Below, in pieces: positions 5,998 to 48,166 of a DNA stretch of 64,000 bases. The translations under genes were made by a program, and so were the position numbers. Under the pieces are notes generated by a model that made no database searches, had not been told where the DNA came from, and worked only from the letters and a program-made list of their open reading frames with translations. Origin of the DNA: Hymenobacter sp. CRA2 (GTDB lineage: Bacteria > Bacteroidota > Bacteroidia > Cytophagales > Hymenobacteraceae); contig NZ_MVBC01000003.1 in assembly GCF_002007105.1 (NCBI RefSeq), positions 1 through 64,000 of the forward strand, read 5' to 3'. Numbering within the stretch: position 1 is the first letter of the stretch; each line of letters starts with the position of its first letter.

Positions 5998-6028
5998 TTT
6001 GATTTTCCGGCGCACTTGTTTAGCTTTG
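5998..6028 (+). promoter_or_regulatory. tRNA-Leu promoter
   Basis: TTTG (5998-6001), a 19-bp spacer, and a perfect -7 TAGCTTTG (6021-6028) lie 27 bases before the tRNA. This is a textbook Bacteroidota promoter. Confidence 0.75.
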
Positions 6029-6055
6029 CGGCCCCGCGGCAGTCGGCCGTGCAAT

Positions 6056-6140
6056 GCGGATGTGGCGAAATTGGTAGACGTGCCAGACTTAGGATCTGGT
6101 GCCGCAAGGCGTGTGGGTTCGAGTCCCTCCATCCGCACCA
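6056..6140 (+). tRNA. tRNA-Leu (anticodon TAG)
   Basis: An 85-nt type II tRNA with an encoded CCA end. Acceptor GCGGATG pairs with CATCCGC, and the D-arm TGGCGAAATTGGTAGACG is typical of tRNA-Leu. The anticodon stem CCAGA/TCTGG encloses the loop CTTAGGA with anticodon TAG, which reads CUA and other CUN codons. A short variable arm (GCCGCAAGGCG) and the T-arm GGTTCGAGTCC follow. Confidence 0.97.
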
Positions 6141-6269
6141 CTCCTCTGCTGTTTCGGCAGCAGCCTCGATGCAGGCCCTCAACACCCCGGCCCCGGTGCG
6201 TTGGGGGCTTGTTGCCTTTTTATCTAACTGGGTCCGACCGGCCCGCTTACTTTTAATTTCCGACTCGTT

Positions 6270-7598
6270 TTGGACATCACCCTCGACAAAAAAGACGAAC
6301 AGCAGGGCGCCCTGCTGACCGTGCGCCTCACGGAAGCTGACTACTCGGAAGCAGTAGAAAAGCAGATCAAAGACGTCAGCAAAAAGGCGCAGATCAAAGG
6401 CTTCCGGCCGGGCAAAGTGCCGGTTGGGCTGGTGCGCAAGATGTACGGCAAGGGCGTGCTGGTCGACGAAATCAACCGCCTGCTGAACTCGTCGGTAGAC
6501 GCTTATATCAAAGAGAACAACCTGCGTCTCATCGGCGACCCGCTGCCGGTGCCCGCCAACGTAGACTTCGACAACCAGAAGGACTACGAATTCCAGTTTG
6601 AGCTGGGCCTGATTCCCGACTTCTCGCTGCCCACCGGCGACTCGTTCGAAGTAGAGCGCCCGAAAGTGGAGCTGGACCAGAACACGCTGGAGGAGACTTA
6701 CGAGCAGATCGGCCGCCAGTTCGGCGAAAACACCAACCCCGAAACCTCGGAGTCCGGTGACTACATCTCGGGTCAGCTGAAGCAGGAAACCACCGAGTTT
6801 TCGCAGAAAGTGCTGCTGCCAACCAACAAGCTGAAGAACAGCACCGACAAGTTTATCGGCGTGAAAGCCGGTGACGTGGTGACCTTCGACCTGAAGGACG
6901 CTTTCGGCGGCGACGTGTCGGCTATTGCCAACTTCTCGGGCCTGTCGAAAGAACTGGCTGCCGGCGTGGAAGGCGAGTACACCTTCGAAGTAGAGCAGAT
7001 TCACCGTTCGCAGCACGCTGAGTACAACCAGGAGCTGTTCGACAAGGTGTTCGGCAAAGACGCTGTGACCACCCGCGAGGAGTTCGACGCCAAGATCAAC
7101 GAGACGATTCAGCAGAACTACGACCGCGAAGCCGACAACGTGCTGAACCGTCGCCTGATCGAGAAAATCGTTAACGAGACGGAAATCAACCTGCCCAAGG
7201 AGTTCTTCAAGAAATGGCTGGTAGCTGCCAACCAGGGCAAGCTGACGGTTGAGCAGGTAGAAGAGCACTACAGCGACTACGAGAAGGAACTGAAGTGGTC
7301 GTTGATCCGCAATAAAGTGGTGGAAGAGCAGGGTCTGAAAGTGTCGAACGAGGAAATCCTCGACCGCACCATGGACAAGATTCTGGCTCAGTTCAACATG
7401 CCGGAAGTAGGCGAAGAGCTGCGCGAATCGGTGCGCGGCTTCGCCGACAACTACCTGCGTCAGGAGAACGGCAAGAACTACGTACAGGAGTACGAAGCCA
7501 TTCTGGCAGAAAAAGTGCTCGAGAACCTGCGTGGTCAGATTGTTGTGAAGGACCAGCCGATGACGGCCGAGGACTTCCGGAGCAACCCGCAAGCGTAA
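6270..7598 (+). CDS. tig: Trigger factor (ribosome-associated chaperone, peptidyl-prolyl isomerase)
   Basis: A 442-aa ATP-independent chaperone that binds at the ribosomal exit tunnel. The N-terminal ribosome-binding domain carries the signature GFRPGKVP (about residues 44-51), and the C-terminal chaperone arms follow. The middle isomerase domain is divergent, as is common in Bacteroidota. The start is TTG at 6270, because the reading [11 protein letters not shown] matches the usual trigger factor N-terminus and no in-frame ATG lies nearby. It sits just upstream of clpP and clpX, the classical order. A strong terminator (7624-7662) separates it from clpP. Confidence 0.95.
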
Positions 7599-7623
7599 AT
7601 CTGCGCTGGGGTTGATTCCCGCT

Positions 7624-7662
7624 AAAAAAAAGCCCTTACTTCGTCGGAGTAAGGGCTTTTTT
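7624..7662 (+). terminator. Intrinsic terminator between tig and clpP
   Basis: A perfect stem AGCCCTTACT with AGTAAGGGCT, flanked by an A tract and a T tract, so it can act in both directions. It ends the tig transcript and means that clpP has its own promoter. Confidence 0.92.
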
Positions 7663-7731
7663 CGTACCCTTGACTCCCCGGCTATCGGCCGGTATCAGCC
7701 GTACCAACCATCTCTCCTACCTTTTCAGTCA

Positions 7732-8436
7732 ATGCTGAACAAACAGGAATTCCGCAAATTCGCCGTTAAGGGCCAAGGCCTGAGCGGCTTGGGTGTCGAT
7801 CAGTATCTGCACCACATCGAAGGGCAAAGCAGCCATTTCGTCACGAACATGACGCGCTCGGTTATCGAGGAACGCCCCACGCGCTTCGCCGAAATCGACG
7901 TATTCTCCCGCCTGATCATGGACCGTATCGTGTTCCTGGGCACGCCGGTTGACGATTACATTGCCAACATCATCACGGCCCAGCTGCTCTTCCTGGAGTC
8001 GGCTGATGCCAAAAAGGACATTCTGCTCTACATCAACTCGCCCGGTGGCTCGGTGTACGCCGGCCTCGGCATCTACGACACCATGCAATACGTGGGTCCG
8101 GACGTCGCCACCATCTGCACCGGCTTGGCCGCCTCCATGGGCGCCGTGCTGCTGGCCGGTGGCGCCAAGGACAAGCGCTCGGCCCTGCCCCACGCCCGCG
8201 TGATGATTCACCAGCCCTCGGGCGGCGTGCAAGGTCAGTCGTCGGATATTGAGATTACCGCTCGCGAAATCCTCAAGCTGAAGAAGGAGTTGTACGACAT
8301 CTTGGCCAAGCATACTGGCAAGACCTACCAGGAAGTGCACGACAACTCCGACCGCGACTACTGGATGCGCGCCGACGAAGCCAAGGAATACGGCATCATC
8401 GACGAAGTGCTGGAGCGCCACAAGCTGGAAAAGTAA
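7732..8436 (+). CDS. clpP: ATP-dependent Clp protease proteolytic subunit
   Basis: A 234-aa serine peptidase that forms the tetradecameric chamber working with ClpX. The catalytic triad is intact: Ser135 in [10 protein letters not shown], His160 in VMIHQPSGG and Asp209 in SDRDYWM, with the spacings (25 and 49) of E. coli ClpP. The start at ATG 7732 is chosen because the frame upstream runs into the tig terminator. The N-terminus is about 35 residues longer than the mature E. coli enzyme, as usual in Bacteroidota. clpX follows downstream after about 400 bp of spacer, a repeat and a terminator, so the two are separate transcription units. Confidence 0.97.
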
Positions 8437-8460
8437 CTCCGCGGCGACGCTGAAATAATT

Positions 8461-8569
8461 AGAACGTCATGCTGAACCCCGCGAAGCATCTTTACCGCTT
8501 CGTCTGAAAGTAATTTTACTCTCAGAAGTTAGCGCGCAAGATTCCTCAACAAGCTTGGAATGACGTTCT
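8461..8569. repeat. REP/MITE-like element, copy 2, with 10-bp inverted ends
   Basis: A 109-bp element bounded by a perfect 10-bp inverted repeat (AGAACGTCAT at 8461-8470, ATGACGTTCT at 8560-8569). The left half matches the repeat at 5901-5950. It has no coding capacity and lies between clpP and its terminator. Confidence 0.75.
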
Positions 8570-8661
8570 TTTTTAGTTGCTCTGGTTTTTGCTGCTGATT
8601 CGCTCAGCCAGTAATTCAGGCCGTTCGGCAACAAAGTTTTAGCGGCAGACGGCCGCACATG

Positions 8662-8714
8662 CAACCGTCTCATTCTGAATGGTAACTTCAGGGTGAGACG
8701 GTTGTTCTTTTTGT
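8662..8714 (+). terminator. Terminator downstream of clpP
   Basis: An 11-bp perfect stem CAACCGTCTCA/TGAGACGGTTG, with an inner CTGAA/TTCAG pair, is followed by TTCTTTTTG. It lies about 225 bases after the clpP stop, beyond the repeat at 8461-8569. Confidence 0.8.
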
Positions 8715-8767
8715 AGAAGCTCGACGCATCGGCACTTTTAACGATGCGCAGGGCGTTTGCGAATTCG

Positions 8768-35754: not shown

Positions 35755-35775
35755 GCAGCCTGCCACACGCCCATA

Positions 35776-35822
35776 ACAAGCGGGGCCCGGTCAGCTAACT
35801 GACCGGGCCCCGCTTGTTTTTT
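35776..35822. terminator. Bidirectional terminator, 19-bp perfect stem
   Basis: ACAAGCGGGGCCCGGTCAG pairs perfectly with its complement around a CTAA loop, then TTTTTTG. It ends the 57-aa locus and, on the other strand, the TonB/DUF4249 operon (last stop at 35840). Confidence 0.95.
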
Positions 35823-35839: not shown

Positions 35840-38296
35840 CTAGCGGGCTTGTGCCACGCCCGAGGCCTTCACCTCGAAGGTGAAGCTGCGGCTGCCAGCC
35901 AGGCCCGAATCGGCCAGCCCCTGCACCACTACCACGTACTTGCCGGCCTCGTCGGACGTGTAGAACTCCAGTTGCTGCCCACTGGCGGAGGAGGTCAGCA
36001 CCTGAGGGTTCCAGTATAGCAGGTTACGCAAGTCGGGCAGGCGGCTTTGCTGCTGCTGGGCGGTGGCGTAGCGTGGGGAGTAGAATTCCCGCTCCCATTG
36101 CAGGCCCTCGTACTCCTGAACCAGGGCGCGGGCATCGGGCCGATAGCCAGCCAGGTCGCCTTTGTAGGTAGTGTAACTCACGATGCCGCTGTACATCAGC
36201 CCCGCTTGCATGAAGCGGCCATCCATTACCTCCAGCGTTTTGATCTTTAGCGGGTCCATTTTCATTACGCGGTTGATGTCGAAAAACGGCACCCCGTCGA
36301 GCAGCACCATGGGGTCATCGTCGAAGTAGGCCCCGCTGACTTTGTCGACTACCATGAAGTGGAAACCGTCCTTGCGTAGGCGCACCTGCACGCCCGGTAC
36401 GTACTCGCGCATTACTTCCTCCATCACTTTGAAGCGCGTGTAATCATCGAGCCGGTACAGCTCCGAGGCCTTGCCGTAGAGGGAAACGCTATCGGCCAGC
36501 GGCTGGGCAAATGCGCTGAGCGGTTTGCGGAAGTACGCGTTCTGGGCCTGCATCTGCAGGTGGCGCTGCGTCAGCTCGGGGCGGTACAGTTCGGGCAGGG
36601 CCAGCCCGGGCGCCGGCCGCGGTACGAACACCGCCGAAAACGGATTGTGAATTTCGAAGCGGTAGATGCTGTCCTGCCGGGTATTGGTTTGCAGCACCAG
36701 ATTTTTGGGCCCGTATAAGTCCCGCACCTCAAAGTGTACCGCGCCGTTGGCGTCACTCAATGAGCTGTACATGCGTACGGGCACGCCGGGCGCGGCCAGA
36801 TAGGCTGGAATTTGCGCCGCCGGCTGGTTGGTATGTTTATTAAACACGCGGCCCTGCACCAGGTGCCCGTTGAATTCGGGTACGTATGGCCGCGGTAGCG
36901 GGCCGCCGGCCAATACCTTGTCCCAGCTAAACCGGCGCCAGCCCTGGGTTAGCATCAGGTTGTCGGCGGCTTCATCGGCCTCAGCGGAACTATCCCGGAG
37001 GTAATAGCCGGGATTTTCGATGACCCCGGGCAAATCCGAAGTAAGCCACAGGTAGCTGCTGATATCAGCGGCGGTGGCAGCCCTAGTAGCCAGCGAATCG
37101 AGTCGGTACACGGCCACCGACAGGTTAGCCGGCGCCTCCGCGCCGGTGCCGTCGTTGGTGCGTAGGCTCAGGCTTACCTTGTCGCGGGTGCCGTACTGGC
37201 GGCGGTCGGCGGCGGCGCTGATGCTCAGCTGCGCCTTGGGCCGCTGGAAATACAGCCGCTCGCACACCGGCCGCTGCTGCGCATCGAAGGCGGTGAAATG
37301 CAGCACGCCCTCGGGCAGCCGGCTTTTGTCCAGCAGCAGTTGCCCCTGGCTGTTGGCCAGCGGCAGGCTCGTCGCCACGAAGGCCTGCTGGCCAGCATGG
37401 CCCAGCACGTATACCGGGCCACTGGCTGCGGCCGGCCCGCTGGCCCGCACCGATAAGCTCACCTGGTTCGGGCCGGCGTCGTCCAGGCTCAGCACGTAAC
37501 CCTGCTCGTTCACGGCCGGCGCCTGGCTGGTTACGGTCTGCTGCCCCGGTAATTTTACCACCGCGGTGTACGCCTTGCCTGCTTCGGTGGGCGTAAAGGC
37601 GAACCGGCCCATGCCAAACTTCAGCGTTTTGAAGCGCGCCACTACCTTATTCTGCGGGTCCAGCAGCACGCCTTCTGCGTCCAGGCCGCGGCCAGTTTTG
37701 TCGGCTACCTTGAAGCCCACCTTGCTCGGCAGGCCCTTCACCAGATTGCCGCCTTCGGGAAAAAACTGCACGTCGATGCCCGCCGAATCGGCGGCGGCAG
37801 GCAGCCGCTCCGCGAAGGTGTTGACCACCGTCACCGTGCTGTGGAAGTAATACTCCGGCCCGAAGTTTTTCATCCAGTTGGTATAAGCCCGTACCGTGTA
37901 GCGGCCCGAGGCCAGCGTGGCCGGCAGCTGAAAGGAGCCGTGCCCGGCAGCCTGCTTCAGCTCAATTTTGCCCTGTAGCACGGGCCTCTGCTTAGCGTCG
38001 AGCACCTCCACGTAGGCCACCTTGCTGAGCGGCAGCGGCTGGTGCCGGGAGCCGGCCACGGCGTAGAGCTTAAACCACATGATGTCGCCGCCCACGTACA
38101 GGCTGCGGTCGAGGTGCAGAAAGAGCTTTTCGTGCGCGTCCTGCTGGCTGTAGTTTTCAAAAGCCTGGGCTACGGGTAGCGCCGGGGCCGGCGCCTGGGC
38201 CCAGGCACCGCTGGCATTCAGCCAGGCCAGCCCAACCGCTGCGCGCAAGCCCATCCGCACGATGCCTGCCATGGTATGTGGTCGTTTCGGGTTCAT
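35840..38296 (-). CDS. Exported MG2-like protein with TonB-receptor plug-like domain
   Basis: An 818-aa exported protein with signal peptide (residues about 1-34). The first half resembles the MG2 domains of bacterial macroglobulin-like proteins: EKLFLHLDRSLYVGGDIMWFKLY (shown in part) and TVRAYTNWMKNFGPEYYF. Near residues 670-725 is a segment PMVLLDGVPFFDINRVMKMDPLKIK and VMDGRFMQAGLMYSGIVSY that looks like the plug domain of a TonB-dependent receptor, but no 22-strand barrel can follow in the remaining ~95 residues. It is the last gene of the operon 44322-35840 and starts 13 bases after the first DUF4249 stop. It may act with the TonB receptor at the outer membrane; the function is unknown. 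Confidence 0.8.
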   Translation of the reverse strand: MNPKRPHTMAGIVRMGLRAAVGLAWLNASGAWAQAPAPALPVAQAFENYSQQDAHEKLFLHLDRSLYVGGDIMWFKLYAVAGSRHQPLPLSKVAYVEVLDAKQRPVLQGKIELKQAAGHGSFQLPATLASGRYTVRAYTNWMKNFGPEYYFHSTVTVVNTFAERLPAAADSAGIDVQFFPEGGNLVKGLPSKVGFKVADKTGRGLDAEGVLLDPQNKVVARFKTLKFGMGRFAFTPTEAGKAYTAVVKLPGQQTVTSQAPAVNEQGYVLSLDDAGPNQVSLSVRASGPAAASGPVYVLGHAGQQAFVATSLPLANSQGQLLLDKSRLPEGVLHFTAFDAQQRPVCERLYFQRPKAQLSISAAADRRQYGTRDKVSLSLRTNDGTGAEAPANLSVAVYRLDSLATRAATAADISSYLWLTSDLPGVIENPGYYLRDSSAEADEAADNLMLTQGWRRFSWDKVLAGGPLPRPYVPEFNGHLVQGRVFNKHTNQPAAQIPAYLAAPGVPVRMYSSLSDANGAVHFEVRDLYGPKNLVLQTNTRQDSIYRFEIHNPFSAVFVPRPAPGLALPELYRPELTQRHLQMQAQNAYFRKPLSAFAQPLADSVSLYGKASELYRLDDYTRFKVMEEVMREYVPGVQVRLRKDGFHFMVVDKVSGAYFDDDPMVLLDGVPFFDINRVMKMDPLKIKTLEVMDGRFMQAGLMYSGIVSYTTYKGDLAGYRPDARALVQEYEGLQWEREFYSPRYATAQQQQSRLPDLRNLLYWNPQVLTSSASGQQLEFYTSDEAGKYVVVVQGLADSGLAGSRSFTFEVKASGVAQAR

Positions 38297-38308
38297 TCTT
38301 TCTAAATC

Positions 38309-39475
38309 TTAGCGCCAGAAGCTGGGGCGCACATTGGTGCCGCGCTTGCGGCAGTCCACGCATTCTGGGGTGGATGCGGTGTAGCCCAAGAGGGTGCCCT
38401 CCGCAGAATATATTCCTTCAATCGGCAACCAGACAAAGGAGGAGAAGGCCCCCCGCACGTCGCGTAAGTACACATCCCGCGTCAGCTGGCAGCTCTCATA
38501 ACCCGTGTCGAAAGACAGCCACGGGCGCGGCAGCTCGGACCGGTCGATAAACAAGCGCTTTTCGGTGGTCGAATAGGCCCCGACGTATCCCAGCACCGGC
38601 TGGTCCGGGTCGTTCAGGTCGTGCACGTTGCCGGTGAGCTGCGAGGGCAGCGGGTCGAACAAAGTGCCGATGTTCTCCGTGTTCTTGCGCAGCAGGTCCC
38701 AGTACGCGTATTCCTCGGCCGTCTGCGCGTGCTGCTTCACCAGGATGCTGTACTTCACCTGCAGCTTGGCCGAGCGCTTCGGCAACGTGGTAAGCGGCAG
38801 GCGCGACACCACCGCCTGGCCGAGCTGCGTGGTGTTGGTCAGGCGAATAGTGGTACTAGGCGCCGAGGTCCAGCAGCGATAGATGTCCTCCTGCCGAAAC
38901 TGTATCTGGTTGTTCTTCCACTCGAACAACGACCGGTGGGCCGAGGTGAATTCCCACGTCTCGTCGAAGTCCCAGCGGTAGTACTGCGCTTGGTTGTTCG
39001 CGTCGTGCGTGCTCACGTTGATTTCGACCCCATCGTCTGCGACTTGGAAGCCAAGGCTGTCGATTTCGGGCGTGATGGTAACGGCCGTGTAATCGGAAGC
39101 GTATTCGCGCCCGGCGGCGGAGAATAAATGCAGGCGGTACTTGCGGCCCGCGGCCAGGGTTTGCGCCGGCGAGGTGTAGGTACCAGGGGCTGAGGCAGCT
39201 TCATTAAGCGTAATGCGGCTGCCGGCCTCGTCCTCGATGTACACCCGCGCCCGTGCCTCTACTGGCGGCTGCCCAGTGGCTTTTACATCGAAGCTTCGGG
39301 AGAGTTTGATCGTTGAAATACCCCGGGCGTTGATGTAGCCGTCCACCACCAGGAGCCTGTTGTCGGCGTCCTTTAATTCGGGGTTAAACGGATCAATGCA
39401 GCCGGCCAGAGCCACCACTGCCCACGGCAACATCCGCGCCACCCGGCTCTGTACCTTACTGTTCAAATGTCGCAT
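38309..39475 (-). CDS. DUF4249 lipoprotein (copy A)
   Basis: A 388-aa predicted outer-membrane lipoprotein with signal ending AVVALAGCIDP (lipobox cysteine about residue 26). DUF4249 proteins are Bacteroidota-specific and occur next to TonB-dependent receptors; a SusD-like partner role is proposed by analogy, not shown. The first ~200 residues are beta-rich. It is a tandem paralogue of the next gene; a ~185-bp stretch (38571-38755) is almost identical to 39842-40026, although the rest of the genes diverge clearly. It lies between its paralogue and the MG2/plug gene in one operon. Confidence 0.9.
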   Translation of the reverse strand: MRHLNSKVQSRVARMLPWAVVALAGCIDPFNPELKDADNRLLVVDGYINARGISTIKLSRSFDVKATGQPPVEARARVYIEDEAGSRITLNEAASAPGTYTSPAQTLAAGRKYRLHLFSAAGREYASDYTAVTITPEIDSLGFQVADDGVEINVSTHDANNQAQYYRWDFDETWEFTSAHRSLFEWKNNQIQFRQEDIYRCWTSAPSTTIRLTNTTQLGQAVVSRLPLTTLPKRSAKLQVKYSILVKQHAQTAEEYAYWDLLRKNTENIGTLFDPLPSQLTGNVHDLNDPDQPVLGYVGAYSTTEKRLFIDRSELPRPWLSFDTGYESCQLTRDVYLRDVRGAFSSFVWLPIEGIYSAEGTLLGYTASTPECVDCRKRGTNVRPSFWR

Positions 39476-39579
39476 AGGCTAGTATTTCGATAATAAATAC
39501 CCTGGGTCGGCAGCGGAAACGTGAGCAAAACAGGGACGAATTATTCAAGCAATAATACCGGGTGCTGAGGCAGGCAGCT

Positions 39580-40737
39580 TCAGCGCCAGAAGCCGGGGCG
39601 CACATTGGTACCACGCAGGCGGCAATCCGTACAACCCGCCGAGCCAGAAGTATAGGCGATGATGCTACCCTGCCCATCATATAGGGCTTCGAGGGGAAGA
39701 ACCGCCGGGCTGGCAAACGCCGCCGCTACGTCGCGCACCTCCACGGTGTCAGGCGGGCTGCAGCTTTCGTAGCCGGTCTCAAACAAGCGGCCATCCTGGG
39801 GCAGTTGCGCCCATTCGATGAAGATGCGCTTCTGGGTTTCGGAATAGGCCCCGACGTATCCCAGCACCGGCTGGTCCGGGTCGTTCAGGTCGTGCACGTT
39901 GCCGGTGAGCTGCGAGGGCAGCGGGTCGAACAAAGTGCCGATGTTCTCCGTGTTCTTGCGCAGCAGGTCCCAGTAGGCGTACTCCTCGGCCGTCTGCGCG
40001 TGCTGCTTCACCAGGATGCTGTACTTTATCCGCAGCTTCTGCGACTTCGCCGGGATGGTTATCAGCGGAAGCTTTGACACTACTGTTTCGCTGAGCCGGC
40101 TAACGTCGGCTAGCCGAATGCTGGTGCTCGGCTGTGATATCCAGCAGCGGTAAATGTCTTCGCCTCGCCCCTGAAGCCGTCTGTTCACGTACTCAAGGTA
40201 CGACCTGTAAGCCGAGGTAAATTCCCACGTTTCGTCATAGTTCCAGCGGTAGTACTGCACTTGGTTGGTGTTATCGTGCGTACTCACGTCGATGACGACC
40301 CCGTTGGAGGTGGAGGCCCACGCTACCGAGTCAATTTCTGGCGTATTCAGCGCGGCCGTGTAGTCGGAGGTGTATTCCTTGCCGGCGTTGGTGAAGAAAT
40401 GCAGGCGGTACTTGCGGGCCGGGTTGAGCACCTGCGAGGGCGAGGTGTAAGTACCAGGGGCCGAAGGGGCTTCGCTAAGCGTGATGCGGCTGCCGGCCTC
40501 GTCCTCGATGTATACCCGTGCCCGCGTTTCGGTCGGGGCCTGTCCGCCGGCGCTCAGGTTGAAGGTGCGCGAGAGCTTGATGGTCGTCACGCCTTTGGTG
40601 TTGATGAACCCGTCCACCACCAGGTAGTTTTTGTTGGTGTCGGCCACCTTCGGGTTGAAGGGGTCGATACACCCGGCGGCCAGCAGCAACAGCCCCCAGG
40701 CAAGCAGGCGAGTTGTCCGGTATAATGTGCTTTGCAT
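39580..40737 (-). CDS. DUF4249 lipoprotein (copy B)
   Basis: A 385-aa lipoprotein with signal ending LLLAAGCIDPF (cysteine about residue 23). Paralogue of copy A with shared blocks such as IKLSR(S/T)F, RARVYIEDEAGSRITL and TYTSP, and an identical central tract. The gene begins 1 base after the TonB receptor stop, so the two are translationally close and probably work together. The ~100-bp spacer to copy A holds no terminator. Confidence 0.9.
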   Translation of the reverse strand: MQSTLYRTTRLLAWGLLLLAAGCIDPFNPKVADTNKNYLVVDGFINTKGVTTIKLSRTFNLSAGGQAPTETRARVYIEDEAGSRITLSEAPSAPGTYTSPSQVLNPARKYRLHFFTNAGKEYTSDYTAALNTPEIDSVAWASTSNGVVIDVSTHDNTNQVQYYRWNYDETWEFTSAYRSYLEYVNRRLQGRGEDIYRCWISQPSTSIRLADVSRLSETVVSKLPLITIPAKSQKLRIKYSILVKQHAQTAEEYAYWDLLRKNTENIGTLFDPLPSQLTGNVHDLNDPDQPVLGYVGAYSETQKRIFIEWAQLPQDGRLFETGYESCSPPDTVEVRDVAAAFASPAVLPLEALYDGQGSIIAYTSGSAGCTDCRLRGTNVRPGFWR

Positions 40738-40738
40738 C

Positions 40739-43534
40739 CTAGAAGCGGAAGTTATAAGTAACTGTGGGGATGGGTTGGCCGAAGATGGAAAGCTGGTAGC
40801 CGTTGATCTTACCGTTTTCCGATTTAAAGTAGACCGAGTACGGGTTCTTGCGCCCCGTCAGGTTGTACACGCCCACCGTCCAGGAGCTGTGGGCCAGCTT
40901 TTTCACCTTGTGGTTGCCCTCGATGTTCAGGGCCAGGTCGAGGCGGTAGTAATCCGGGATGCGGTAGGCGTTGCGGTCGGAGTAGAGCACGCGCAGCGCG
41001 TTGCCCACGTAGTACTTGGCAATGGGCAGGGTGATGGGCCGCCCGGTGCTGTAGTTGAAGTTGAGCGAGGTGCTGAAGCGGCGGCTGAAGCGGTAGTTAC
41101 CGATCATCATCACGTCGTGGGGCTTGTCGAAGTTGCTGGGGTAGTACTGCCCGCCGTTGATGATTTCCGAGGGAGCAATGCCGTTGACGCGCACCAGCGA
41201 GCGGGAGTAGGTGTAGCTCACCCAGCCGTTGATCTTGCCCGTGAGCTTGCGCAGCATCACCTCCACCCCGTAAGCCTTGCCCTGGGCGTTTATCACGTCC
41301 TGCTCGATGTTGTGATTCAGAATCAGCGAGGCGCCGCTCTTGTAGTCCACCACGTCGCGCAGCCACTTGTAGTAGGTTTCCACCGAGGCCTCGATGGTGT
41401 TGTTCTTGAAGTTGCGGTAGTAGCCCAGGGCCACCTGGTCGCCCACCTGCGGGCGCAGGTTCACGTCGCTCAGCTTCCAGATATCGGTGGGCGACACCGA
41501 GGCTGTGTTGGTGAGCATGTTAATGTACTGGCGCGTGCGGTTGTAGCTGGCCTTCACCGAGGAGTTGTCGGTGAGGGCGTACTTCACCGAGGCCCGGTAC
41601 TCCGGCCCGTGGTAGGTAGCCATTACCTGCCCCGGCTTGTAGCGCACCGTGTCCACGATGGTGCCTTCGTTGCGGGGGGCGCCGGCCGCGTAGCGCGGCA
41701 CGTCCTTCGGGCCCAGGGCGTGGTAGAAGGAGTAGCGCAGGCCCAAGGACACGGCCAGGCGCGGCGTCACGTCGATGCGGTCTGACACGTACAGAGCGCT
41801 TTCCAGCCCCTGCTCGCGGCTAAGCACATCCGTCTTCACCAGCGACTCTGCGCCCAAGGGGCGCAGGCTGCCGGGCGCCACCTGGTAGTGAATCGCGCTG
41901 CCCCCGAACTCGATGGTGTGCTTGGGATTGAGATAGTAGCTGAAGTCGAGCTGGGCACTAGTTTGGTTCAGGCTGTAGCGCAGCTCCGAGGAGTTGACGG
42001 GGTTTTTCTCGCTGCGGATGTCGTACTCGTAGTGGCTAAACGCCGTCGTGGCGACGCTGTAGAGGCGGTTGTTGTAGATGTGCTTCCACTTCAGGCTCGC
42101 GTTCTGGTTCAGGTAGCGGTACGTGGTGTCGGCCGCCAGCCGGAACTTGTCGCGGCTGAGGTAGCCGGTCAGGTACACCGAGTTCTTGTCGTTGATGTCG
42201 TAGCTCAGGTGCGCGTTCAGGTCGTAGAACGAGGCCGAGCTTTCGCGGAAGCTCTTGTTGGGCAGCCGCTGCAGCAGCCAGTCGGAGTACGAGGAGCGGC
42301 CGCTGATGATAAACGAGGCTTTGTCCTGCAGAATAGGTCCTTCCAGCATGAGGCGGCTGGTGAGCGGCCCGATGCCGCCGGCCCCACCCAGCTTCTTGCG
42401 GTTGCCCTCGCGGGTGGCAATGTCGAGCACCGACGAAAGGCGCCCGCCGTACTTGGCCGGAATGGCGCTTTTGTAGAGTTCCACGCCCTTCAGCACGTCG
42501 GGGTTGAAGGCGGAGAAGAAGCCGAACAAGTGCGAGGGGTTGTACACCGTCGCGTCGTTGAACAGGATCAGGTTCTGGTCGGTGGAGCCGCCGCGCACGT
42601 TCATGCCGGTGCTCCCCTCGCCCACCGATTTCACGCCGGGCAGGGTGAGCACCACGCGCAGGATGTCCGTCTCGCCAAACGCCGTGGGCACCTGCTTAAT
42701 GGTCTTGATGTCGAGCTTCTCCAGCCCCATCTGCATGCCCGACACGTTGCGGTCCTTTTCGCCCTCGATGACCACCTCCTTGAGCGGGGTCACGTCTTCT
42801 TCCACGTCAATCTCCAGCTTGCCGTCGTTGCGCAGCACCACCACGCGCCGGGTGTTCTTGATGCCGATGCCGCGCACCATGATGGCGTGGCGGCCCAGCG
42901 GCAGGGTCAGCGAGTAGTAGCCGAACTGGTCGGTGGAGGCCCCTACGCTCGGCGACTCCACGTACACGCTCACGCCCACGGCCGGTTCGCCAGTATTGGC
43001 ATCGCGCACGTGGCCGGCCACGGTGGCCTTGCCGCTGGGGTTGGGCGTCTGCCCGATGTCGTACACGCGGCCTTCAGCGTTGCGCTTGGTGCGGGGCTTG
43101 TTCAGCGCGTCCAGCGGGTCGTCGCCCCCGGGAGCGGTGGCTACGGATCCGTCGGTAAGCGGCTGGAAGAACATGGGCGCCAAGCCCGTTTGCAGGGCTT
43201 GGCCCGAGGTGATGTACACCCGGCTCTGCTCATCGATGGCGTAGCGCAGGCCGCCCTGCTTAAACACGGCATCGAGCACGGCGGGCAGCGGCTGCTGTTC
43301 CACCGTCAGGTTGATGCAGAGGCTGTCCACCGTCAGGGGCTCGAAGTGGAAGCGGTACTTGGTCTGGCTTTCGATCTGCTGGGCAAACTGCTCGAAGGAG
43401 GCGTTGGCAAACCGGGCGCTGATCAGGGTGTTGGTGGGCTGCTGTGCCCAGACCAGCTGCGCGCTGCCCAGTAGCCACAGCCACAGGCCCAGCCGCAGCA
43501 GCGCCCGTAGCGGATTCGAATCGTTGGAGTTCAT
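40739..43534 (-). CDS. TonB-dependent receptor with STN and carboxypeptidase-like N-terminal domains
   Basis: A 931-aa outer-membrane receptor for an unknown ligand. Signal peptide to about residue 30, an STN domain (about 35-105), a CarboxypepD_reg-like domain (AGHVRDANTGEPAVGVSVYVE, here in part, about 160-240), a plug (about 250-380, with VKSVGEGSTGMNVRGGSTDQ), and a 22-strand barrel ending in the expected aromatic residue (VTYNFRF). STN normally signals to a FecR anti-sigma factor, but none lies nearby. ATG 43534 is the start of the signal peptide. The gene is second in the operon, 17 bases after the upstream secreted-protein gene. Confidence 0.95.
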   Translation of the reverse strand: MNSNDSNPLRALLRLGLWLWLLGSAQLVWAQQPTNTLISARFANASFEQFAQQIESQTKYRFHFEPLTVDSLCINLTVEQQPLPAVLDAVFKQGGLRYAIDEQSRVYITSGQALQTGLAPMFFQPLTDGSVATAPGGDDPLDALNKPRTKRNAEGRVYDIGQTPNPSGKATVAGHVRDANTGEPAVGVSVYVESPSVGASTDQFGYYSLTLPLGRHAIMVRGIGIKNTRRVVVLRNDGKLEIDVEEDVTPLKEVVIEGEKDRNVSGMQMGLEKLDIKTIKQVPTAFGETDILRVVLTLPGVKSVGEGSTGMNVRGGSTDQNLILFNDATVYNPSHLFGFFSAFNPDVLKGVELYKSAIPAKYGGRLSSVLDIATREGNRKKLGGAGGIGPLTSRLMLEGPILQDKASFIISGRSSYSDWLLQRLPNKSFRESSASFYDLNAHLSYDINDKNSVYLTGYLSRDKFRLAADTTYRYLNQNASLKWKHIYNNRLYSVATTAFSHYEYDIRSEKNPVNSSELRYSLNQTSAQLDFSYYLNPKHTIEFGGSAIHYQVAPGSLRPLGAESLVKTDVLSREQGLESALYVSDRIDVTPRLAVSLGLRYSFYHALGPKDVPRYAAGAPRNEGTIVDTVRYKPGQVMATYHGPEYRASVKYALTDNSSVKASYNRTRQYINMLTNTASVSPTDIWKLSDVNLRPQVGDQVALGYYRNFKNNTIEASVETYYKWLRDVVDYKSGASLILNHNIEQDVINAQGKAYGVEVMLRKLTGKINGWVSYTYSRSLVRVNGIAPSEIINGGQYYPSNFDKPHDVMMIGNYRFSRRFSTSLNFNYSTGRPITLPIAKYYVGNALRVLYSDRNAYRIPDYYRLDLALNIEGNHKVKKLAHSSWTVGVYNLTGRKNPYSVYFKSENGKINGYQLSIFGQPIPTVTYNFRF

Positions 43535-43551
43535 AATGCGGCGGGAGCAGA

Positions 43552-44322
43552 TCATTTTCCGGGGGCGCTGGCTTGGTTCAGCTGATCGTAGTAAGCCGTC
43601 AGGGCCACGATGGAAGCGAGGCGTTGCTCCTTGCTGAAGGCGAGCTTCTGCTCGCTGGCGTACTTCTTCAACTCTTTTTTCCGGTCGCCGATGGCGGCCA
43701 ATACCGAGCCTTTTTTGGCCACGGGGTAATAGGTGCCGTTGCGAACAATGAAGTACCGGTCGACATTGATGAGCACCTTGTAGTACACGCGCTGCTCCAG
43801 TAAATCCTGCGTGGTCTTGCTGTGCCGGGCCAGGGCCTGCAGTCCGCTTTTTCCGGCGTACAGCACCTCATAAAAGCCCGTGGTTACCGAGCTTTCCGCC
43901 GCCGGGTCGGCCACGATGCGCTTGAACCGGTGCCCGTCGATGGTAAAGCTTTCCACCTCTTCGCTGAGCAGCATCAGCTTGACGGGGCTGTTGTAGCTGT
44001 TGGTGATCAGCACATCGAGCCGAATATCGTACTGCAGCGGAATGTTGACGAAATCGTAGCCGTTGAAGCGCACGCTCCCGTTCAGCTCCTCGTTCGACAA
44101 AAAATACTGGTGCCCCCTGGAGTTGGCGGGCAGGTAATTCGTGTACAGCAAACCGGTGTACAGCGCCGCGCCGCCCCCTACCGCCGTGAGGTAACGCTGG
44201 TGCATGTTCTGGACGGTCGAGGCCAGCAAGGAGGAATCGGCGGGTGCGGCCTGCGCCCAGCTACGGCTGCTGAGCGCAGGCAGTAGCAACAGGGTACAGC
44301 CCAGAAGTAATCGTCTACCCAT
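43552..44322 (-). CDS. Hypothetical exported protein, first gene of the TonB/DUF4249 operon
   Basis: A 256-aa protein with signal peptide (MGRRLLLGCTLLLLPALSSRSWAQ). The mature part is mixed alpha/beta with no motif I recognise. The gene starts the five-gene minus-strand operon (44322 to 35840) and is followed 17 bases later by the TonB receptor. Its position suggests an accessory role in the same uptake system. About 255 bp without a gene precede it, with no clear consensus promoter. Confidence 0.8.
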   Translation of the reverse strand: MGRRLLLGCTLLLLPALSSRSWAQAAPADSSLLASTVQNMHQRYLTAVGGGAALYTGLLYTNYLPANSRGHQYFLSNEELNGSVRFNGYDFVNIPLQYDIRLDVLITNSYNSPVKLMLLSEEVESFTIDGHRFKRIVADPAAESSVTTGFYEVLYAGKSGLQALARHSKTTQDLLEQRVYYKVLINVDRYFIVRNGTYYPVAKKGSVLAAIGDRKKELKKYASEQKLAFSKEQRLASIVALTAYYDQLNQASAPGK

Positions 44323-45748: not shown

Positions 45749-48166
45749 TTACTGCACCACGATGCGCTGCGTTTCCGTTACGTCGCCGGTGAAGCGCAGC
45801 AGGTACACGCCGGGCTTGAGCTGCCCGCGCGGGATGCTCAGCGTGCTCTGCTTGTCCACGCTTACCTGACTTACCGTGCGGCCAACGAGGTCCAGCACGT
45901 CGATGCGCTTGACGTGGGTGGGGTTGGCGCCCAGCTTCACCATGATCTTATCGGCGGCGGGGTTGGGGTACACCTCGATGACGTGTTTGGCGGCGGCCTC
46001 GGTAGCAGCGGTGATGCGGCAGTTGGTAGCGGCTGGCCCTTTGCCCGCAATGGCCGTGGTGGAAGTAGCAATGACCACCTTATCCAGCTGGGCGCTGCCG
46101 CCGGTGTTGTAGCCAATGGTCAGCGTGTGCGGACCCACCGTCAGGGCGCCTTCCTTCAGCTTCAGCCAGCGCCAGCCGGCCGTGGTGCCCACTTCCTTCA
46201 CGCTCACGTCGTCGATGTAGTAGGTATTTGCCACCTGCCCCATGTCGAACAGGAAGGTGGTGGAAGCCAACGACGTGGTGATGGTCCAGGTAACCTGCTG
46301 CCACGTCGTGCCGATGGTCTGGTCGGCCTGGTACTGGGGGCTGCTGGGGCCGGTGGAGAGGCGGATGGAGCCCCCGGCGTTGGCGGCCCGCACCCAGTAC
46401 GAAATCTGGTATTGCTTGCCGATGGTGGTGGGGAAGGCCGCGCTGGTTACCTGTACGCGCCACTGGTTGCCGGGCTGGGCGGTGGGGTTTACCACTTTCA
46501 TCGAGCCGGTGCCGCTGTGGGCTTCCGCCGCCACGGTGTTGGCCGTGATGGTGGCGCCGGTGGCGTTGAGCGTGGTCCAGCCGGTCAGGCCGTTCTCAAA
46601 GCCGGGGTTGGTGGCCAGCTGGCTCGTCACGGCTTGGAAGGCTTCGTTGTCCACTTTCACCCAGTAGCCATACTCCTCGGTAGCCGGTACGTTCAGGCGG
46701 GCCAGGTAATTGTAGGTGGCGGCGCTGTCCACGGTGAAGGGCATGGTCAGCAGAGCCGCGGCGGCCGTGGGGGCCGTGGTGGGGCTGCTCAGGCCGCTTT
46801 GCACCCGTACATAACCACCGTTAGAGGCCGAGGTATCAGCCATCACGCTCCAGTTGGCGCCCACCGTGGCGCATTCGGCTTCCAGCCAGTAGCGCTTGCC
46901 CAGGGGCTCGGCCTGCAGCACGGGGTTGCCGCTGCCCCACCACTGGTACCAGCGGCGGTAGTTCAGCTGCGGGTACGGGTGCACGGTAATGTTGGTGTTG
47001 GCGGCTGTGTTGCCGAGCAGAAACTTCTCCACGAAGGCCTCCACGGCCGGCTGCTGCGTAGCGGGCACGGCGCAGTGGTTGTGCGCACCGTCGATGTAGA
47101 AGCCGAACCGGTCGCCGATGCCGAAGGTGTTCCACACCTCGTGCGCGGCCCGGGCCGATACGTAAGCCGAGGGGTTGGCCAGCCATTCAAAGTCGGTGTT
47201 GCCAGTCACCAGCAGGGCGCGCGGCGCAATCATGGCCATCAGCTCGTGGTGGTCGTGCGGGAGCTTGCTCACGTTGGTACCCGCAAACTGCTGCATGTCG
47301 TCCTTGAACCAGCGGTAGTCGGTGGCGCCGAGCTTTTCCACCGCGCCCAGCGTTTCGGACACGCGCCAGGCCGGGGCTCCGCCCCCACCCGATTCCTGCG
47401 CGATGGTCAGGGCAATCCGCTCGTCGAAGGCACCCGAAAACAGGGCCATCTTGCCGGCGTAAGAGCAGCCTGTCACGGCCAGGTGGCGCAGGTCGACGGG
47501 CAGCGAGGACTGCACCAGCTCCAGGCCGTCGATGATGCGACTCACGCCCCAGGCCCAGGCGCTGTACTGGCCCGAGTTGGCCAGCGTCTGCGAGGGGTAG
47601 AGGCGGTAAAAGGGGTCGGTCTGGGCCGGGTTGCCGTAGGTCGTGACCTGGTTGTGGTTGAACTTGATGGTGGCCACGTTGCGGCTGGTAAACACCGCAG
47701 CCGGGATGCTGCCCGTGCCGCTGTTCATGCCGATGACGGCCGGAAACGGCCCGCTGCCGGTAGCAGGCAGCGTGATTTCGGAAGTCAGCGTGAGCGTCTG
47801 CCCGTTCTCGGTCACGTTCACCGTCAGCACGCCGGTATTGGCGGTGGTGCCGGCGGCGTAGCTGGCCGTGATGTTTTGGGGGCGCGGGGGCTTGGTGCCG
47901 ATTTCGTAGTTCTCGATTTCGGCCTTGATTTCGTTGCGGCGGCACTCCCAGTCGCTAAAAGCGGTGGAACGGCTCTGCCCATTGGAGCGCATAAAGGGGT
48001 CGGGCAGCGGGTCCACGGTGGGTAGCTGGTTGAAGGCCGGCAAGGTCGGGGCCGTGCAACTGCCGCCGGTGTTTTCGGTGGTGTACACCAGCGGAATCTG
48101 CTGCGCCGAAGCGCCCAGACTCAGCATGGCCAGCAGCAAGGCTGCAAGGGTATTGGTTGTCTTCAT
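45749..48166 (-). CDS. Secreted carbohydrate esterase, CE15-like glucuronoyl esterase with T9SS sorting signal
   Basis: An 805-aa secreted enzyme. Signal peptide 1-22. An alpha/beta-hydrolase domain (about 50-385) resembles CE15 glucuronoyl esterases, which cut the ester between lignin and glucuronoxylan: the nucleophile motif GCSYAGK has Ser235 (CE15 usually has Arg where Tyr236 stands), QESGGG carries Glu258, and His362/His364 lie in AHNHCAVP. Two beta-rich regions follow (about 410-520 and 525-690, carbohydrate-binding-like), then a C-terminal T9SS sorting domain (PNPAADKIMVKL ... GVYLLRFTG). A palindrome at 48534-48547 may be its operator. Confidence 0.88.
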   Translation of the reverse strand: MKTTNTLAALLLAMLSLGASAQQIPLVYTTENTGGSCTAPTLPAFNQLPTVDPLPDPFMRSNGQSRSTAFSDWECRRNEIKAEIENYEIGTKPPRPQNITASYAAGTTANTGVLTVNVTENGQTLTLTSEITLPATGSGPFPAVIGMNSGTGSIPAAVFTSRNVATIKFNHNQVTTYGNPAQTDPFYRLYPSQTLANSGQYSAWAWGVSRIIDGLELVQSSLPVDLRHLAVTGCSYAGKMALFSGAFDERIALTIAQESGGGGAPAWRVSETLGAVEKLGATDYRWFKDDMQQFAGTNVSKLPHDHHELMAMIAPRALLVTGNTDFEWLANPSAYVSARAAHEVWNTFGIGDRFGFYIDGAHNHCAVPATQQPAVEAFVEKFLLGNTAANTNITVHPYPQLNYRRWYQWWGSGNPVLQAEPLGKRYWLEAECATVGANWSVMADTSASNGGYVRVQSGLSSPTTAPTAAAALLTMPFTVDSAATYNYLARLNVPATEEYGYWVKVDNEAFQAVTSQLATNPGFENGLTGWTTLNATGATITANTVAAEAHSGTGSMKVVNPTAQPGNQWRVQVTSAAFPTTIGKQYQISYWVRAANAGGSIRLSTGPSSPQYQADQTIGTTWQQVTWTITTSLASTTFLFDMGQVANTYYIDDVSVKEVGTTAGWRWLKLKEGALTVGPHTLTIGYNTGGSAQLDKVVIATSTTAIAGKGPAATNCRITAATEAAAKHVIEVYPNPAADKIMVKLGANPTHVKRIDVLDLVGRTVSQVSVDKQSTLSIPRGQLKPGVYLLRFTGDVTETQRIVVQ

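Follow-up and report, generated by a model that had tools for sequence, protein, structure and literature searches.

The genes BT2172 and BT2173, which encode a TonB-dependent receptor and a neighbouring DUF4249 protein, have been proposed to work together (PMC11003636; this paper and the others cited by PMC number are drawn on from excerpts), and a role of DUF4249 proteins as lids appears in the title of a 2023 preprint on TonB-transporter lids cited in that paper. For SusC, the Ton box reads DEVVVTG, and the plugs of SusC transporters leave the barrel when the lid closes, the plug being missing in the closed state (PMC7782687). In the type IX secretion system (T9SS), a separate periplasmic protein, Plug, seals the SprA barrel (PMC7463736). 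Here, a five-gene operon is described from Hymenobacter sp. CRA2 (genome of 5.88 Mb in 45 contigs), lying entirely on the minus strand of the first 64,000 nucleotides of contig NZ_MVBC01000003.1, a stretch referred to below as the window. In the order of transcription, it encodes an exported-looking protein (E256), a TonB-dependent receptor, the DUF4249 lipoproteins B and A, and a macroglobulin-like protein with a plug-like domain (P818).

As in the BT2172-BT2173 pairs, the receptor adjoins a DUF4249 protein (PMC11003636), but in contrast to pairs of that type the operon adds an STN domain, E256 and P818. With SusCD and RagAB it shares an NTE-like domain, a Ton box, a plug, a barrel and a lipoprotein partner. 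Unlike those systems, the receptor scores 42.2 bits against the NCBI SusC/RagA model TIGR04056, below the cut-off of 368.25, the lipoproteins match DUF4249 only and no SusD family in Pfam, and an extra plug-bearing protein is present. An earlier reading of the locus, made from its letters alone (the sequence-only reading), had described a SusCD-style system with DUF4249 in the SusD role; what stands of this is DUF4249 as the partner of a receptor, for which BT2172-BT2173 provides the precedent, whereas membership of the SusC and SusD families is not upheld.

All five open reading frames (ORFs) were confirmed in the order given by the sequence-only reading, and the gene set recurs across genomes. 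The constant core is E256-receptor-P818, and DUF4249 is the least constant gene, with zero to four copies. This follows from a scan of the best 80 of 579 confirmed P818 stretches, chosen by P818 similarity and yielding 79 loci, mostly from Hymenobacter and Pontibacter, where 68 of the 79 carry E256, the receptor, one to three DUF4249 genes and P818 in that order, and six more lack only DUF4249. The remainder consist of three loci cut by a contig end (L179, L200, L201), one with the receptor in two frames (L167) and one with P818 alone (L206). P818 closes the receptor-containing gene run in 78 of the 79 loci, while the sharing of flanking gene families is largely confined to pairs of close relatives (L044/L045, L050/L056, L052/L063, L057/L061 and L059/L060), and the order thus recurs far beyond chance; the expectation of a gene order conserved across Bacteroidota is accordingly borne out. 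The flanks were compared by gene clustering in 40 regions, 20 hand-picked from different genera of the family and 20 surrounding P818 matches of greater distance, from genomes that partly overlap those of the scan. The operon genes recur throughout the 23 of these regions with a close P818 (L044-L066), which hold 24 operons; E256, receptor and P818 are ordered in 24 of 24, and one to four DUF4249 genes are present in 23, with none in L046.

With regard to distribution, 160 of 204 genomes of the family have a P818 match at E<=1e-120, a sample of the phylum yielded matches at E<=1e-5 in 45 of its 198 genomes, and E256 matches were found in 43 of 296 genomes. The closest titled P818 relative among the matches listed is from Solirubrum puertoriconensis (66% in the best segment), and ten plasmid records hold distant relatives, all below 60% identity. 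Around E256 matches, 20 regions were picked, several for a nearby P818 match and hence not as a random draw, with most matches under 70 bits left out; 16 contain the operon, in L124 with the order E256-receptor-P818-DUF4249. E256 stands alone in the other four, L127 (80 bits), L130 (75 bits), L131 (72 bits) and L133 (47 bits), and since L125, at 70 bits, has the operon, the E256 score does not by itself separate operons from lone E256 genes. Within the source genome, the sole E256 match is that of this operon, and a single further P818 match at E<=1e-5 maps to contig C1, which has no DUF4249 match. Three further DUF4249-receptor loci (contigs C3, C11 and C42) are not accompanied by an E256 or P818 match.

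Variants of the arrangement were also observed. Tandem operon pairs are found in L053 and L114, and L116 contains a second receptor-DUF4249-P818 set without an E256 of its own, its P818 being cut by the region end. In L167 (positions 6010-8762), the split receptor gene lies between E256 and DUF4249. A DUF4249 gene is lacking between receptor and P818 in L135 (the same locus as L046), L137, L140, L147, L148 and L189.

P818 lacks a barrel, as the sequence-only reading had noted, and carries a plug-like domain that spans about residues 612-716, so that the resemblance proposed in that reading holds while the extent given there, residues 670-725, does not. Pfam Plug does not match P818 of the window itself, and at E<=1 it was found in 8 of 21 close relatives (best 0.0024); a profile of these 21 sequences matched C3 and alpha-2-macroglobulin (A2M), and no receptor, at E<=1 in the PDB. 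Among 29 wider relatives, Plug was detected in 14 (best 5.7e-12), and the NCBI SusC model likewise in 14 (best 2.9e-27). The link to receptors is provided by relatives encoded outside such operons, hereafter solo proteins: a profile of 23 of them matched SusC at E 3.6e-18, with an alignment that runs from the Ton box into the plug. The operon plug matched the solo plug at E 3.7e-14 (probability 98, 106 columns), and the solo plug matched the plug of the cognate receptor at E 1.4e-6 (probability 90), against 0.22 for a reversed control, 0.088 or worse for eight column shuffles, and 0.011 to 0.25 for five unrelated domain pairs. In whole-alignment comparison with the receptors (A5), the operon P818s (A3) gave a weak match (E 0.0087, probability 4.6%), outdone by the solo alignment (A6; E 1.2e-7, probability 94%). 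On these sequence comparisons, the plug-like domain of P818 is homologous to receptor plugs by transitivity through the solo proteins, and the similarity to plugs on which the sequence-only reading hinged is thus present. The operon plug is nearest to the solo plugs (3.7e-14, as against 8.5e-4 for its own receptor's plug), which argues for descent of the domain from the solo family and against a copy of the receptor's own plug, and the same comparison gives no support to P818 as a mimic derived from the cognate plug.

In the model, a macroglobulin/complement-type scaffold makes up most of P818, a point that went unnoticed in the sequence-only reading. The whole-protein search with the AlphaFold2 model (29 sequences, mean pLDDT 81.6, pTM 0.78) was filled by macroglobulins, all 50 Foldseek matches shown being to A2M, complement C3, C4 or C5, or their near relatives (E 5.9e-16 to 7.7e-12). 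In a second structural comparison, E. coli A2M (4ziq; Z 21.8, 319 residues, root-mean-square deviation (rmsd) 5.0) and C5b (4e0s; Z 20.0, 425 residues, rmsd 5.4) aligned over nearly the whole model. Global TM-scores against macroglobulins are low (0.1-0.3) and rmsds large, both probably stemming from a different domain arrangement. The MG2 assignment of the sequence-only reading is sustained by an E-value of 1.8e-6 and by matches in 28 of 29 relatives at E<=0.01 and in all 21 close relatives at E<=1, with the qualification that the window protein, at 28.6 bits, remains under the Pfam cut-off of 32.8. Thus, P818 resembles A2M and C3-C5 in its MG2 domain and, by fold (Z about 20-22), in its multi-domain scaffold; unlike A2M, it has no CxEQ motif, is far shorter, and bears a plug-like domain before the last beta domain. 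The CxEQ thioester motif is absent from all 68 P818 rows (repeats between sets included), and a thioester protease trap is rejected on that account. By the domain order of macroglobulins, P818 would presumably have no room for a thioester domain, and the plug-like domain would sit at about the position of their bait or anaphylatoxin inserts.

The NTE-like domain of P818 matches that of the receptor over 27 columns (E 4.7e-5, probability 68%), and Pfam CarboxypepD_reg was found in 8 of the 29 relatives. The N-terminus appears signal-peptide-like; a lipobox was found in none of 68 rows (overlapping sets), a chance lipobox match within the first 60 residues occurs in 6 of 80 rows, that of the window not among them, and Pfam detects no sorting tail. 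Signal-peptide and lipobox calls throughout were made by eye or by a simple pattern. Across 80 rows, mean column identity is highest in the pre-plug block (0.75), followed by the first macroglobulin (MG) domain (0.59), the plug-like domain (0.58) and the C-terminal domain (0.57), then by the helical stretch before the NTE-like domain (0.52), the other MG and NTE-like domains (0.44-0.49) and the linker before the plug (0.33). In short P818s of 542-625 residues, the middle MG domains are absent, whereas the MG2, NTE-like, plug-like and C-terminal parts are retained, so that it is the plug-like end that persists in the operon. The 14 short forms fall into two groups of the tree described below, which implies repeated loss or gain of the middle MG domains alongside a constant plug-like end. 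The notion that P818 is the fossil of a truncated SusC is not supported, given the conserved C-terminal domain found after the plug in P818s of either length.

The operon P818s and the solo proteins share the same architecture and align over their full length, but they differ in the Ton box, a contrast that the sequence-only reading did not notice. A matrix was built on a block before the plug of the solo proteins, spotted by eye, and was applied with an arbitrary threshold of 6 bits fixed before scoring, solo proteins being scored leave-one-out. A Ton-box-like motif of at least 6 bits is present in 23 of 23 solo proteins (mean 14.7, lowest 6.2) and in none of 97 operon-type P818s (maximum 5.9), the latter comprising the window protein, 79 from the record scan (L206 included) and 17 from the E256-based regions. 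Shuffled controls reach 6 bits in 13% of solo regions and in 3 of 97 operon regions, and a single match therefore means little, although the contrast between the groups is clear. By sequence, the operon P818s are one clade: in a tree of 51 proteins, 23 operon P818s are split from 28 solo proteins by a branch with 100/100 support (midpoint root; two long-branch solo rows, and 19 rows with deviating composition). The profiles detected neither E256 nor DUF4249, nor a same-strand receptor, in the 17 regions whose P818 relatives are remote; a receptor fragment in L079 lies 9 kb away on the opposite strand. Neighbours were checked in wide regions for 14 of the 23 solo rows, and for all in their own loci with flanks of about 1.5 kb; the only receptor fragment near a solo protein is in L035, on the opposite strand and tail to tail. 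The barrel-less solo family with its Ton-box-like motif (L012-L033, L035, L067-L083) often has several members per genome, in tandem in L073 and L074.

The receptor qualifies as a TonB-dependent transporter, with barrel (83.6 bits), Plug (33.5 bits) and CarboxypepD_reg-like domains all over the Pfam cut-offs. Its sequence PLKEVVIEGE scores 14.6 bits with the solo-derived matrix and represents a putative Ton box before the plug, and 67 of 77 operon receptors have such a motif at 6 bits or more. The plug is the best conserved receptor domain (mean column identity 0.85 over 77 rows), followed by the Ton-box linker (0.78), barrel (0.68), NTE-like domain (0.64) and STN (0.43). STN, which the sequence-only reading attributed to the receptor, goes undetected by Pfam in the receptor of the window but is supported by its relatives, since it is found at E<=1 in 14 of 18 operon receptors (best 2.5e-7); FecR_C is found at E<=1 in 7 of the 18.

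The DUF4249 lipoproteins A and B are 64% identical (alignment A4) and score 183.5 and 182.8 bits, respectively, against the Pfam cut-off of 28.5. A lipobox-like pattern is present in both window copies, in 18 of 23 rows of A4 and in 87 of 95 of a wider set, and mean column identity is 0.44 overall. Five cysteines, the lipidated one included, are invariant (23 of 23 rows); two of the four non-lipidated ones lie in a C-terminal CxxC motif (window copies at 38309-39475 and 39580-40737). A sequence search found no solved relative. The absence of DUF4249 from some operons and its presence in up to four copies in others suggest that it is an exchangeable, cargo-specific part.

For E256, the N-terminus is signal-peptide-like. 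An LLGC pattern at the start of the hydrophobic stretch, found in 8 of 77 E256 rows, is read as part of an ordinary signal peptide, a lipid anchor being possible. Mean column identity is 0.33 overall. No PDB sequence matched at E<=1, and no Pfam family did better than E 0.039, in single members (alignment A2). The model is a confident fold (pLDDT 87.2) without a Foldseek match at E<=0.001, the best Z in the second comparison being 4.6, which does not show a new fold.

The reading favoured here, to which a probability of about 0.42 is given, is that the operon specifies a TonB-driven uptake system in which P818 is an inner-side partner of the receptor, docking at the mouth of the barrel. The DUF4249 lipoproteins would serve as exchangeable surface lids over the barrel, and the receptor, with its own Ton box and plug, would be worked by TonB. 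E256 and P818 would be exported, P818 without a lipid anchor and most likely to the periplasm, where its plug-like domain would dock at the barrel mouth or against the plug/STN region of the receptor, and its scaffold would receive or hold cargo, or guard the mouth while the receptor's plug is displaced. Given the missing Ton box of the operon P818s, the pull of TonB would act on the receptor alone. The location of the proteins, complex formation, docking, the lid role and the direction of transport are what we infer. The constant companion of the receptor is an exported-looking, plug-bearing protein without a Ton box, which by analogy fits a trans-acting partner at the inner mouth. Departure of the SusC plug from its barrel on lid closure would give a second plug something to do, and the Plug of SprA is similarly a separate protein closing the periplasmic end of a barrel, as a functional analogy only (PMC7463736). 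Conservation also counts in favour, the pre-plug, plug-like, C-terminal and first MG parts being the best conserved of P818, and the plug that of the receptor. So do the recurrent gene order, the plug-like end retained by the short forms, the single clade of the operon P818s and the earlier proposal of a DUF4249-receptor partnership.

Several observations weigh against this proposal. The receptor retains its own plug, and P818 is therefore not needed to close it. The operon plug matches its own receptor's plug weakly, with a probability of 24% over 56 columns, about half of the domain. The solo proteins share the architecture of P818 without this operon beside them (17 of 17 regions), and a plug-like domain alone thus implies no partner barrel. 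DUF4249 is missing from 6 of 79 loci, so that a lid encoded in the same operon is not obligatory; L206, from a metagenome-assembled genome, has an operon-type P818 without the other operon genes (1 of 79 loci); and clustering of the 40 regions revealed no recurrent enzyme or transporter family beside the operon. Some of these points would suit P818 as a periplasmic cargo-binding or scaffold protein whose plug-like domain is a vestigial adaptor fold with no contact to the barrel, an explanation that is rather unlikely. It would account for the solo proteins, with the same architecture and no operon nearby, and for the drift of the operon plug far from true plugs, as reflected in the few and weak Pfam Plug matches of close relatives, but it is at odds with the good conservation of the pre-plug and plug, and with short forms that keep the plug-like end while the middle MG domains are absent.

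The tight pairing with one receptor type, together with signal-peptide-like N-termini on E256 and P818 and the lack of a lipobox in the latter, might alternatively be expected of assembly factors that assist in receptor folding or insertion, or in the export of the DUF4249 partner. This is improbable: the BAM subunits of Bacteroidota differ, by description only, in the excerpt of PMC12611786, and the three other DUF4249-receptor loci of the genome manage without an adjoining E256 or P818 match. It is very improbable that E256 and P818 replace an anti-sigma factor, with the STN of the receptor signalling through them; STN is a signalling domain (PMC7782687), occurs in most operon receptors at the threshold used above, and no recurrent regulator family lies beside the operon in the 40 regions, but neither protein matches a sigma or anti-sigma family, and by eye the E256 model has no membrane-anchor-like helix beyond the signal peptide. 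Export or surface assembly, in which the receptor would move P818 or another protein outward, has a precedent in the TonB-dependent transporter required for PopC secretion in Myxococcus (PMC6434023), but P818 has neither a Pfam sorting tail nor a lipobox, and DUF4249-receptor pairs have been proposed as transporters with partners (PMC11003636), making this the most improbable of the explanations considered. An extension of the inner-side partner reading, itself unlikely though less so than the assembly role, is that a family of barrel-less Bacteroidota proteins with a macroglobulin-type scaffold, Ton box and plug are TonB-linked periplasmic devices, one branch of which would have lost the Ton box, joined a DUF4249 receptor operon and become a trans plug that takes the place of the receptor's plug in the barrel on its withdrawal, passing cargo to the scaffold and keeping the membrane sealed.

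The features of the locus are collected in Table 1. Intergenic spacings in the order of transcription are -4 (an overlap), 1, 104 and 12 bp; the tight spacing given as 1 to 105 bp in the sequence-only reading is thus correct in substance, save for the overlap at the first junction, and suggests co-transcription of the five genes. Two promoter scans upstream of E256 gave nothing convincing (three sites against 2.0 expected) and no exact match, respectively, and the nearest upstream minus-strand ORF ends about 255 bp from E256. A hairpin lies 21 bp past the P818 stop codon, its T-run favouring the plus strand and the operon being on the minus strand. Upstream of the operon on the same strand (45749-48166), a secreted protein of 805 residues is encoded, with a glucuronyl-esterase-like domain, a CBM_4_9 domain and a Por secretion (T9SS) sorting tail.

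Table 1. Operon genes, domains and the adjacent hairpin, in coordinates of the 64,000-nt window (aa, amino acids)
Feature	Position	Strand	Description
E256	43552..44322	-	256 aa; first operon gene; exported-looking; no Pfam family or close solved fold
TonB-dependent receptor	40739..43555	-	938 aa; STN-like, CarboxypepD_reg-like (NTE), Ton box, plug, barrel
Receptor Ton-box-like motif LKEVVIEG	42761..42784	-	residues 258-265; matrix from solo MG-plug proteins
Receptor plug	42440..42679	-	residues 293-372; Pfam PF07715
DUF4249 lipoprotein B	39580..40737	-	385 aa; Pfam 182.8 bits; lipobox-like AAGC
DUF4249 lipoprotein A	38309..39475	-	388 aa; Pfam 183.5 bits; lipobox-like LAGC
P818	35840..38296	-	818 aa; macroglobulin-like, exported-looking; plug-like domain, no barrel
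P818 MG2 domain	37877..38128	-	residues 57-140; Pfam PF01835, E 1.8e-6, under cut-off
P818 CarboxypepD_reg/NTE-like domain	36641..36871	-	about residues 476-552; match to the receptor's domain
P818 plug-like domain	36149..36463	-	about residues 612-716; model and alignment
P818 C-terminal beta domain	35867..36124	-	about residues 725-810; model; retained in short operon forms
Hairpin	35775..35818		stem of at least 20 pairs; terminator-like; T-run on plus strand

The partnership of DUF4249 proteins with receptors is already in print (PMC11003636). No description of this operon was found in the open-access papers searched, of which a single one names DUF4249 and none joins alpha-2-macroglobulin, Bacteroidetes, TonB and plug. 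Two candidate leads in the literature were set aside: a Riemerella natural-transformation gene with a CarboxypepD domain, for which the excerpt of PMC8459023 mentions neither DUF4249 nor a plug, and the label 'plug domain-containing' given to PorF in the part of PMC12704123 used, which is not informative. PMC3387259, PMC7881567 and PMC7568257 likewise contributed nothing to the interpretation. The operon is regarded as a variant of the known receptor-partner transporter; the plug proteins that lack a barrel and carry a Ton-box-like motif may go beyond this. To our knowledge, it has yet to be explained for TonB transporters how bulky cargo gets through a plugged receptor without a breach of the outer membrane. 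A receptor whose gene is almost always accompanied by that of a second plug protein, one without a barrel, offers a natural system for studying this. The range of proteins on which TonB is taken to act would be widened by the larger family, which combines a Ton-box-like motif with the lack of a barrel.

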